Positions 2,802 through 53,923 of a DNA stretch of 64,000 nt are shown here, in pieces. The number at the start of each line of letters is the position of its first letter. Position 1 is the stretch's first letter. The position numbers and the translations under genes were made by a program. The stretch covers positions 124,001-188,000 of the forward strand of contig NZ_QKOB01000005.1 of NCBI RefSeq assembly GCF_003226535.1, written 5' to 3'. The notes under the pieces were generated by a model that was not told the origin of the DNA, did not search any database, and saw only the letters and a program-made list of their open reading frames with translations. The DNA is from Meiothermus sp. Pnk-1 (GTDB taxonomy: Bacteria > Deinococcota > Deinococci > Deinococcales > Thermaceae).

Positions 2802-5281
2802 GCGGTAACGGCTTCTTTCTTGCTGCGCCCGTAGGCCATGCGCAGCTTGAACATGCCCTTGCGGAAGAGGGTGAGGGCTTCATCTTCGGGTAGGTTCAGG
2901 GCCTTGGCGGCTTCGGGAACCGCTTTTTGCTGCCCCTGGGTGCGCCGCACTACCTCGGCTTCCTGGGCCGGTAGGTTTAGCCGCGCCACCAGGGGCTCGA
3001 GGTCCTTCCAGGTCGCGGGCTTTTTCTTACCCTGGGCGCTGGCCGCTTTGCGCTTGGCGTTCGGGGCCTTTCCGTTCTCCCGCCGCTCGTGCAGCGCCTT
3101 GAGGTCGGGCCCGCCGTAGCGTTCGCAATCGGGGTTGGAACAGGCGGTCTTATCGCGTCCTTTTTGGATCTCGTTCCAGCCGCAGATGGGGCACTTGGAC
3201 TCGAGCACCCGGTCAAAGGAGAGGAAATCGCAATTGTTGCAGCGGTAGTAGGGCTTGCCGCGCCTGGAGATCTTCTGCACGATCTCCCCGGCGTGGCACT
3301 TGGGGCATTCTATGCCCGTGGATGGGGCTTCGTCGCGGGAGTAGTCGCACTCGGGGTAACGGCTGCAGCTGATGAAGCTGCCGTAGCGCCCGTGGCGGCG
3401 CACCAACTCACCCTGGTGGCATTTGGGGCACGCCTCGCCGATGGGCTCGGCGGCCCGCTTAGCCTCGAGCCGCTCGGTGTGGCGGCACTCGGGATAGCCA
3501 GTGCAGCCCAAGAACTGCCCAAAACGGCTCACCTTGACCTCCATCGGCCGGCCGCAGACCGGACACGTCCGGCGCGGCAGGCGACTCACCTCCTCCATGA
3601 AGGGCTCGTAAAACTCGCGCACCACCTTAGGCCAGGGTACCTTGCCCTCTTCGATCCGGTCGAGGTGATCTTCCATGGTGGCGGTAAAGTCGTAGGCCAC
3701 CACCCGGGGGAAGTGCTCCACCAACCACCGCACCACGTCCTTGCCAAGCGGGGTAGGTTTGAGGGTTTTTCCGTTGCGCTCGAGGTACAGCCGCTTCTCC
3801 AGGGTATCTATGGTAGGGGCGTAGGTGGAGGGGCGTCCGATGCCCAGCTCCTCCAGGGTCTTCACCAGCGAGGCGTCGGTGTAGCGCGAGGGGGGCTCGG
3901 TGAAGTGCTGTTCGGGCTCGAGCTCCAAAAGCCGGGTGTAACTTCCCTCGCTGAGATTGGGCAACGAGCTGTCGGCTTCCTCCTCGGATTCGCGGCCCCA
4001 GACCTTCAAGTAGCCGTCGAACTTGAGGATCGAGCCCGTGGCACGAAACACGAAACGGCCTCCCTCGACCGTCACCGTGGTCTGGTCGAACAGCGCCGGG
4101 GTCATCTGGCTAGCTACAAAGCGCCGCCAGATCAGGTCGTAGAGCCGGTATTCCTCCTCGGTGAGGTGTTTTCGTATGGAGTCGGGGGTGCGGCTGGGTG
4201 AGGTCGGGCGGATGGCTTCGTGGGCGTCCTGGGTGCTCGCAGTTTTCTTGCCGCTGTAGAAGTTGGGCTTATCGGGTAAGTAGGGGTGCCCAAACCGCTG
4301 GGCGATCACCTCGCGCACTTCCGCCAGGGCTTCCTGCGAGACCCGTACCGAGTCGGTGCGCATATAGGTGATGAGGCCCACCGTGCCCTCGGGCAGGTCA
4401 ATGCCCTCGTAAAGCTTTTGGGCGACGCGCATGGTGCGCCCTGCGGTCCAGCCCAGGCGTCCGCTGGCGGCTTGTTGCAGGGTCGAGGTGGTGAAGGGAG
4501 CCGCGGGGGAGCGCCGCCGCTCGCGCCGGTCGATCTTGCCGATGCGCCACTGGGGAACCTGCCGGATGCGCTCCACTACCTCGCGGGTTCGGGCTTCGCT
4601 GGTAAGCAGGAACCTCTCGGCGGTCTGCACCCGTTCGCCCTCCACGCTGTAGAGCATGGCTTTAAAGCGCTCCGGACCGCTCTCGAACAGCCCTGCGACC
4701 GTCCAGTACTCTTGGGGCACAAAGGCTTCGATCTCGGCCTCGCGCTCGACCAGCAGCCGGAGCGCCACCGACTGCACCCGCCCGGCGGAGAGCGCCCGGC
4801 GGCGAAACTCCTGGGCCAACAAGGGAGAGAGGTTATACCCCACCAGCCGGTCGAGGACGCGCCGGGCCTGCTGGGCGTCTACCAGGCTTTGGTCGATGGG
4901 GCGGGGGTTGCGGATGGCCTCGCGCACCACGCGGGGAGTAATCTCATGGAACTCGACGCGCATGGGCCTCGAGGGGTCCAACTCCAGCAGCCGCGCCACA
5001 TGCCAGCCGATGGCCTCACCCTCACGGTCGGGGTCGGTGGCGATCAGCACATCCTTGCCCTTGGCGGCCCGTTTGAGTTCGTCCACCACCGGTTTTTTGT
5101 CCTTCTTGACCTCGTATTCGGGAGCGAAATCCCGCTCGACATCCACCCCCAAATCGCGCTCAGGGAGGTCGGCCACATGGCCTTTGCTGGCTTTGACCTC
5201 GTAACCGGCCCCGAGCATCTTGGCGATGCTCTTGGCTTTGGCCGGGGATTCGACGATGACTAAAGTTCCTTTGTTTGCCAT
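2798..5281 (-). CDS. topA: DNA topoisomerase I
   Basis: Type IA topoisomerase of 827 residues that relaxes negative supercoils by transient single-strand cleavage. It begins with a TOPRIM domain (TLVIVESPAKAKSIAKMLG, then TDPDREGEAIGWH near residue 82). The catalytic tyrosine is Tyr306 in GLITYMRTDSVRVS. The C terminus has four tetracysteine zinc ribbons (CPVCGRP..., CPKCHQG..., CPKCHAG..., CPICGWN...) and a basic Lys/Arg-rich tail. The chosen ATG at 5281 gives the standard N-terminal MANKGTLVIVESPAKA; an upstream in-frame ATG at 5386 would add 35 residues and would lie within the promoter. GGAG precedes the start. It is followed by the overlapping cupin gene. Confidence 0.97.
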   Translation of the reverse strand: MANKGTLVIVESPAKAKSIAKMLGAGYEVKASKGHVADLPERDLGVDVERDFAPEYEVKKDKKPVVDELKRAAKGKDVLIATDPDREGEAIGWHVARLLELDPSRPMRVEFHEITPRVVREAIRNPRPIDQSLVDAQQARRVLDRLVGYNLSPLLAQEFRRRALSAGRVQSVALRLLVEREAEIEAFVPQEYWTVAGLFESGPERFKAMLYSVEGERVQTAERFLLTSEARTREVVERIRQVPQWRIGKIDRRERRRSPAAPFTTSTLQQAASGRLGWTAGRTMRVAQKLYEGIDLPEGTVGLITYMRTDSVRVSQEALAEVREVIAQRFGHPYLPDKPNFYSGKKTASTQDAHEAIRPTSPSRTPDSIRKHLTEEEYRLYDLIWRRFVASQMTPALFDQTTVTVEGGRFVFRATGSILKFDGYLKVWGRESEEEADSSLPNLSEGSYTRLLELEPEQHFTEPPSRYTDASLVKTLEELGIGRPSTYAPTIDTLEKRLYLERNGKTLKPTPLGKDVVRWLVEHFPRVVAYDFTATMEDHLDRIEEGKVPWPKVVREFYEPFMEEVSRLPRRTCPVCGRPMEVKVSRFGQFLGCTGYPECRHTERLEAKRAAEPIGEACPKCHQGELVRRHGRYGSFISCSRYPECDYSRDEAPSTGIECPKCHAGEIVQKISRRGKPYYRCNNCDFLSFDRVLESKCPICGWNEIQKGRDKTACSNPDCERYGGPDLKALHERRENGKAPNAKRKAASAQGKKKPATWKDLEPLVARLNLPAQEAEVVRRTQGQQKAVPEAAKALNLPEDEALTLFRKGMFKLRMAYGRSKKEAVTA

Positions 5282-5386: not shown

Positions 5387-5500
5387 GTGCGCTAGTAGCT
5401 AGGCTGGGGCTAGAGGTTCTAAACGCGCCGGCAATGTGAGGTATGTCGTACGCCATACGTCGTGGGCGAGACGCCAAATGCAAAGCGCGGGGGACCACTA
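5383..5500 (-). repeat. Degraded copy of the large intergenic repeat
   Basis: Read on the minus strand, about 5500 to 5445 matches the middle of the repeats at 45628 and 53674: a CCCCCGCG start, a GGCGT step, then GACGTATGGCGTACGAC followed by ATACC. The end near 5400-5383 (AGCTAC then GCGCACTTGA) loosely matches the right end of the 53674 copy. It lies between topA and the sugar operon, in a 397-bp stretch (5282-5678) with no gene. Boundaries are approximate. Confidence 0.45.
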
Positions 5501-35298: not shown

Positions 35299-35403
35299 CT
35301 AGCGCTTTGGGCACAAGATTTGTGCCCTCTTCGCCAGAGGATGATCCACCGCGTTTGGCGTACTAAGATATCTGCGCGGGAAATCGAGTCACCAGCGCCC
35401 TAG
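35299..35403 (-). repeat. CTAG-bounded miniature inverted-repeat element, copy C
   Basis: A 105-bp element starts (minus strand) CTAGGGCGCTGGTGACTCG and ends CCCAAAGCGCTAG, with CTAG at both edges. It holds a perfect 8-bp stem GGGCACAA / TTGTGCCC (35309-35327) and shares ACGCGGTGGATCA and the left end with the element at 42516. Its left edge includes the TAG stop of the PaaK-like gene. It fills most of the 276-bp gap upstream of nuoA, which has no gene. Confidence 0.65.
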
Positions 35404-45627: not shown

Positions 45628-45881
45628 CTAGTGGTCCGGCAGCTTGATCTGTGCTGGCCGCACGTCAGGCGTCGTACGCCATACGTCGAACGAAGGGGAT
45701 CGTCCCCCGGGTGTACGAGCTTTGCTCGTCCCGACAGGGAATCTACCCCCGCGTTTAGCGTCTGGCGTATTGCGTACGACGTACGACGTAGGACGTATAC
45801 CAACATACCAACCCCACCCCAGCCCTCCCCTGCTAGGGGAGGGGGTACTCTGCGTCTTGCGTTTTGCGTACAGCGTACGAC
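45628..45881 (+). repeat. Large intergenic repeat, copy A
   Basis: Starts CTAGTGGTCCGGCAGCTTGATC, like the left end of element D. Then come GGGGATCGTCCCCC, the hairpin ACGAGC ttt GCTCGT, CCCGACAGGGAATCTAC, GCGTTTAGCGTCTGGCGT, many ACG/CGT words, TATACCAAC, and a perfect 9-bp stem CCCTCCCCT / AGGGGAGGG (45823-45843). It is closely similar to copy B at 53674. It fills most of the 521-bp space between terC and purD; no gene is seen there. Confidence 0.75.
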
Positions 45882-53673: not shown

Positions 53674-53923
53674 GCGCTGGTAACTTGATTTGGGCCGACT
53701 CAGACGTCATACGTCATACGAAGAGGATCGTCCCCTAGGTGTACGGCGGCACGCCGTCCCGATAGGGAATCTACCTCCGCGTTTAGCGTCTGGCGTTTTG
53801 CGTATTGCGTATGGCGTACGACGTATACCAACCCCACCCCAGCCCTCCCCTGCTAGGGGAGGGAGCACCCCGCGTTTAGCGTACGACGTACAGCGTTAGG
53901 GCCTCAAGCTACCCGTGCGCTTA
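53674..53923 (+). repeat. Large intergenic repeat, copy B
   Basis: Starts GCGCTGGTAACTTGATTTGGG, then GGATCGTCCCC, the hairpin ACGGCG gca CGCCGT, CCCGATAGGGAATCTAC, GCGTTTAGCGTCTGGCGT, repeated ACG/CGT words, GTATACCAACCCC, and the stem CCCTCCCCT / AGGGGAGGG (53843-53863). The right end GTGCGCTTAGC is an inverted-repeat counterpart of the left and contains the stop codon of the cytochrome gene. It fills the 437-bp space with no gene between rpmH and that gene. Confidence 0.75.

Follow-up and report, generated by a model that had tools for sequence, protein, structure and literature searches.

Copies A and B, two repeats of about 200 bp in the window (the whole stretch of 64,000 nucleotides of Meiothermus sp. 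Pnk-1 DNA analysed here), each carry a hairpin whose stem letters differ between the copies while its arms still pair, raising the question of what kind of element keeps the shape of a hairpin and leaves its sequence free. In the reading preferred here, held at a probability of about 0.72, both are composite repeats around a very small mobile, REP-like palindromic element that occurs in BOX-like arrays.

Copies A and B

The likeness over about 200 bp described in an earlier note on this DNA amounts to 80% identity across 202 bp (A 45676-45876, B 53704-53896), with ungapped alignment blocks at 88% and 86%. The variable hairpins are exactly as given there, ACGAGC-TTT-GCTCGT in A and ACGGCG-GCA-CGCCGT in B, each followed by CCCGAYAGGGAATCTAC, and the second stem said to be kept exactly, CCCTCCCCT-GCT-AGGGGAGGG, is indeed the same in both. 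A covariance model of the hairpin unit, whose training set included A's and B's kind, scores the A unit at 70.4 bits and the B unit at 70.7 bits; the next match in the window reaches 13.2 bits. The features are as follows.

45640-45881, + strand: copy A, composite repeat with one hairpin unit (sequence, alignment)
Neighbours of copy A: terC-like gene, divergent, - strand, 45411-44689 (stop-to-start); purD, + strand, from about 45915
45660-45699, + strand: A left arm, degenerate heptamers (ACGTCNN type) that can pair with the right arm (sequence, fold)
45701-45749, + strand: A hairpin unit (covariance model, 70.4 bits)
45715-45729, + strand: A variable stem, ACGAGC-TTT-GCTCGT (sequence, covariation)
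45751-45799, + strand: A right arm, seven heptamers (A/G)CGTNNN (alignment)
45823-45843, + strand: A right-cap fixed hairpin, CCCTCCCCT-GCT-AGGGGAGGG (sequence)
45852-45879, + strand: A terminal heptamers (alignment)
53680-53899, + strand: copy B, composite repeat with one hairpin unit (sequence, alignment)
Neighbours of copy B: upstream of rpmH (- strand); 3' end of a cytochrome c-like gene (- strand, stop at 53921)
53729-53777, + strand: B hairpin unit (covariance model, 70.7 bits)
53743-53757, + strand: B variable stem, ACGGCG-GCA-CGCCGT (sequence, covariation)
53779-53827, + strand: B right arm, seven heptamers (alignment)
53843-53863, + strand: B right-cap fixed hairpin (sequence)
53872-53899, + strand: B terminal heptamers (alignment)
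5442-5493, - strand: arm-only remnant without a unit, 77% to the A right arm over 52 bp (alignment)

A and B had been proposed as the full-length form of the family; both instead belong to an element whose number of units varies, and carry just one. Element C (hairpin 35309-35327), put forward as a relative, is rejected as a family member: the covariance model misses it, and it has in common with A and B only a short GCGTTTGGCGTA arm fragment and GGATGATCC. The hairpin in 35300-35365 reads GGGCACAA-GAT-TTGTGCCC, and the only letters it shares with A and B are arm-like.

Units and arrays in the genome

The Pnk-1 genome is a 3.51-Mb draft in 36 contigs, and the counts of units and arrays given here are based on searches and on the stretches around matches. 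With copy A as query there are 118 partial matches, and the MITE-like dispersal suspected earlier is borne out, with units inserted at new sites. About 60 loci were read and follow one common plan of left cap, units and right cap. The left cap ends in heptamers of the ACGTCNN type; one to six units of 41-42 bp each follow in tandem, head to tail; the right cap consists of GCGTNNN-type heptamers, after which usually come the fixed hairpin CCCTCCCCT/AGGGGAGGG and further heptamers. The arrays are thus enclosed by two heptamer arms able to pair, so that an array can fold as a long stem bearing a row of hairpins.

Each unit has the form GGTGT-AC(4-bp stem)(3-4 nt loop)(4-bp stem)GT-CCCGATAGGG, continued by GATCGTCC in type 1 or AATCTACC in type 2, and is made up of roughly 33-38 bp of its own sequence plus a copy of a C-rich target. 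This exact pattern occurs 148 times in the genome, against 2 for a reversed-pattern control. Some units contain a further repeat family, always nested directly after GTCCCG: a second hairpin AGACGCTTCCTTCGCCGCCGGTAGGCGGGGTAGGG, or the longer GAGACGCCACCCCACGGCTTACGCC...AAGCGTCTC (L005, L007, L017, L026, L027, L036, L044, L055 and other loci). Runs of six T or six A, CCCGATTTTTTCCCC (L010, L040, L047, L062) and AAAAAACCC (L007, L053, L059), are found where the last unit meets the right cap. Contigs C1, C2, C6, C7, C8 and C9 have ends inside arrays, and the draft therefore probably undercounts units and may collapse identical neighbours.

Covariation of the stem

By itself the A/B pair is a weak case for covariation; the support comes from more than 100 genomic units. 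For this purpose units were collected by their flanks, with the stem left free. In a set of 35 distinct units, 99.5% of the inner-stem cells are paired, with both-side changes at all four inner pairs; over the whole structure such changes fill 40 cells against 10.3 in shuffles, and none of 500 shuffles is as high. Related sequences beat shuffles more easily than independent ones, and the stronger argument is the number of alleles together with the near absence of half-changed stems. Perfect stems fall into 8 alleles in the Pnk-1 genome and 12 among 63 units of relatives, while the 432 inner pairs of 108 Pnk-1 units include no more than 4 broken ones and 3 G-U wobbles. Collecting the genomic copies and building a covariance model, as the earlier note had advised, thus shows arms that vary together. 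Loops go with stems (GAGC is always found with TTT), which indicates that alleles are inherited as blocks. Of the compensatory change read from A and B, the covariation of the stem stands; since each of the two stems is one of about eight alleles that recur, they represent an allele difference and not a single compensatory event.

The covariation means that the hairpin is maintained, which fits selection and palindrome correction alike. The claim of selection on a fold accordingly holds as far as maintenance goes, whereas its folded-RNA form is unsupported, with no match in Rfam, and correction or unit replacement could also match the arms. That one arm serves as the template for the other in template switching, or that whole units are replaced, without any selection on the fold, is a serious possibility with the odds somewhat against it. 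The discrete stem alleles and the few half-changed ones (the 4 broken and 3 wobble pairs above) speak for it, as do stems and loops that differ at one orthologous site amid conserved neighbouring sequence. At that site, the 3' site of an IS605-type tnpB gene (Pfam OrfB_IS605), relatives carry the stems ACAGCC/GGCTGT, ACGGGG/CCCCGT, ACACGC/GCGTGT and ACGGGC/GCCCGT next to a conserved GGGAATCTACCCC, and the L166 copy has an imperfect stem; the differences reflect either change in place or replacement of the unit. However, the sequences that flank and define the hairpin (GGTGTAC, GTCCCG) are conserved as well, which correction leaves unexplained. Correction is in any case compatible with the mobile-element reading, and the family is a natural setting in which to ask whether selection or template-switch correction produces paired changes in DNA hairpins.

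Insertion of single units

The mobile-element reading is supported by sites that are empty in one genome and occupied in another. Such counterparts were found at four sites, so that presence differs between relatives. Each insert is exactly 42 bp (14 codons) and lies between direct repeats at a C-rich target, as in non-autonomous MITE insertion with target duplication, the exact target length being ambiguous. The repeats are ACCCCTGGG, GCACCTGGC, TCCCC, or CCC at the least; they overlap letters resembling the left end of the unit itself (CCTGG), so the duplicated target may be only 4-5 bp. No terminal inverted repeat is apparent in the unit.

At the tnpB 3' site there are no units in L159, from a genome without units, one in several relatives and three in L160. 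The 5' end of the same gene is occupied in L126 and L157 and empty in L156, L158 and L159; L158 has a unit at one tnpB site but none at the other, which makes the two insertions independent events. A second tnpB family is occupied in genome G005 and empty in G000, G001, G002 and G003, and a DDE transposase gene is occupied in the G016 and G007 copies and empty in those of G017. A unit also sits within a RES-family gene. The absence of coding potential noted for A and B may hold for these two copies, but elsewhere the unit is found in frame within genes.

A nucleotide search for empty sites among a first set of loci found none, and a protein-level search was too noisy apart from one pair, L098 (G002) and L050 (Pnk-1 contig C4). 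These are about 97% identical over 770 bp across two genera, a sign of recent exchange between them. One of the two has an extra block of 93 bp that holds a unit and a second hairpin, and the pair is therefore not a clean empty/occupied case.

Growth of arrays

The following mechanism would account for these features. A putative enzyme would recognise the hairpin by its shape and flanks (GGTGTAC...GTCCCG), probably in single-stranded DNA, which would leave the stem letters free provided that pairing is kept. The 3' end of the unit (GTCC or TACC) would recreate the C-rich target, further units could land alongside, and an array would build up. Recombination between arrays would then spread and shuffle units and invert chromosome segments; any effects on transcripts would be by-products.

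The arrays of the Pnk-1 genome show how units are neighboured. Among 46 pairs of adjacent units a single one has the same stem in both members, where shuffling gives an expectation of 7.6 (P about 0.002). This rule could equally reflect recombination loss or assembler collapse of identical neighbours, either of which would give the same result; identical neighbours do occur in L090, from a three-contig relative. The 3' base of the G-run predicts the two bases that open the next junction in 98 of 101 units. A unit has the same sequence at both its junctions in only 1 of 101 cases, fewer than the 5.8 expected by chance, so serial insertion with target duplication is unsupported as the only way in which these arrays grow, and growth by target duplication at existing junctions was set aside. 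A quite unlikely model, offered tentatively, is that of a self-targeting hairpin: the internal GGGGA would base-pair with the TCCCC target, two sub-families would differ together in one base inside the unit and in the bases at the target (the 98 of 101 above), each insertion would recreate a landing site, and arrays would stay heterogeneous.

Candidate movers and other explanations

By analogy with REPs, a Y1 transposase is the natural candidate for the mover. Nevertheless, it seems rather unlikely that this is simply one more REP family of the usual kind, with a Y1 (IS200/IS605 or RAYT) enzyme moving it by recognising the single-stranded hairpin. The hairpin does have an unpaired TGT on one side, 20 of 50 genomes of the family have Y1 genes, and reversed type-2 units start with GTAG followed by a palindrome, as in GTAG REPs (PMC3733652). 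However, no Y1 gene is flanked by units, those units that lie near tnpA being insertions within tnpB, and six genomes (G013, G015, G016, G017, G020, G021) have units but no Y1 match. The inserts are also flanked by target-like repeats; Y1 transposition is not known to leave target duplications. The Pnk-1 genome has one Y1 gene, with no unit near it. As a linked mover, Y1/RAYT was rejected: its presence does not track with the units, and none of these genes has units on both sides.

It is improbable that the repeats are structured regulatory RNA elements whose fold is selected at the RNA level. Such a role would suit the strong fold of A (z = -5.2 against shuffles) and the conserved pairing, but copy number is very uneven between species, the units sit inside unrelated genes, and G-U pairs are rare (3 of 432). 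Rfam 15 gave no match in the window at gathering scores, nor in five array or insertion loci at E up to 0.1. An origin as a dispersed hairpin of TnpB omega RNA, suggested by units near the 3' end of two tnpB families, is hardly tenable and largely refuted by related tnpB genes cleanly without the unit and by units located elsewhere, at a tnpB 5' end and within both a DDE transposase and a RES-family gene.

The small mobile palindrome thus offers a tractable case for how very small palindromic repeats move, with only 42 bp, clean empty and occupied sites, typable hairpin alleles and no linked transposase.

Distribution and rearrangement

With the covariance model, units were found in 20 of 111 Deinococcota genomes, all within three Thermaceae genera, and in none of 27 genomes of a fourth, apparently Thermus-like genus. 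An exact-pattern scan of the GTDB collection, from which records near the Pnk-1 genome were possibly left out, returned only Meiothermus and Calidithermus records. Outside Pnk-1 most units are seen single, many of them in open frames. The genus-mate G001 can very probably be identified as Allomeiothermus (Meiothermus) silvanus DSM 9946, since its plasmid units have the same coordinates as matches in NC_014213 and NC_014214; Pnk-1 would then probably represent another species of Allomeiothermus. In L115 and L126 a tnpB gene is bracketed by two oppositely oriented units (1930-1977 and about 3030-3115); IS elements bracketed in this way could carry units between species.

Five arrays lie in a 19.5-kb stretch of the Pnk-1 genome; the genes on either side of four of them are collinear in A. 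silvanus, which has no array there. The intergenic DNA there is too diverged to set the exact borders of these arrays, and movement of whole composites is only inferred. Composite arrays can also serve as breakpoints for genome rearrangement. The one-unit array L181 of A. silvanus has the left flank of Pnk-1 locus L009 and the right flank of L047, which are separated by about 210 kb on contig 3 and point in opposite directions. Judged by its flanks, L181 looks as would the product of an inversion by recombination between arrays, and at least one rearrangement that separates two Allomeiothermus genomes would then be due to the element. A and B are also at synteny breaks relative to A. silvanus, an observation on these two copies alone.

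Relation to known repeats

A search of the open-access literature (subscription papers lying outside it) found no description of these repeats, nor of the combination seen here, a 42-bp unit that inserts independently and also stands head to tail in heterogeneous arrays. Very small, hairpin-forming and apparently mobile elements exist in other hosts, as cyanobacterial small dispersed repeats and mitochondrial double-hairpin elements. With the Rickettsia palindromic elements the unit has in common in-frame insertion into unrelated genes, but those elements measure about 150 bp, whereas the present units are 42 bp and also form arrays (PMC10969869).

REPs, with their GTAG and CGTC super-families, and REPINs are likewise palindromes of 20-40 bp with alternative paired stems, also present in genes, and alternative complementary stems with compensatory changes have already been reported for REP sub-families (PMC3733652, PMC3116915). 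The likeness extends in part to the GTAG with which type-2 units begin in reverse orientation (PMC3733652): read in reverse, type-2 units give GTAG and type-1 units GACG (55 and 43 of 101 units). Unlike REPs, type-1 units are without the GTAG tag, no RAYT-like (Y1) gene is flanked by units, the inserts are exactly 42 bp with target-like repeats, and the units form head-to-tail arrays, head-tail pairs being rare in REPs (PMC3733652, PMC3116915).

The closest plan is that of the BOX elements of Streptococcus pneumoniae, boxA-(boxB)n-boxC, in which two end modules surround a variable number of tandem middle modules (PMC3049150). The same arrangement, with different end modules around one to six middle units, is found at the approximately 60 loci read here, and BOX elements similarly occur as lone modules, fold into stem-loops, appear mobile and exceed 100 copies per genome (PMC3049150). 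The host is unrelated, so the likeness is taken as one of plan, in how the element works, and not of sequence homology. The present arrays further differ from BOX in that their end modules are heptamer arrays, and their middle units fall into discrete stem alleles and are also inserted singly, often inside genes.
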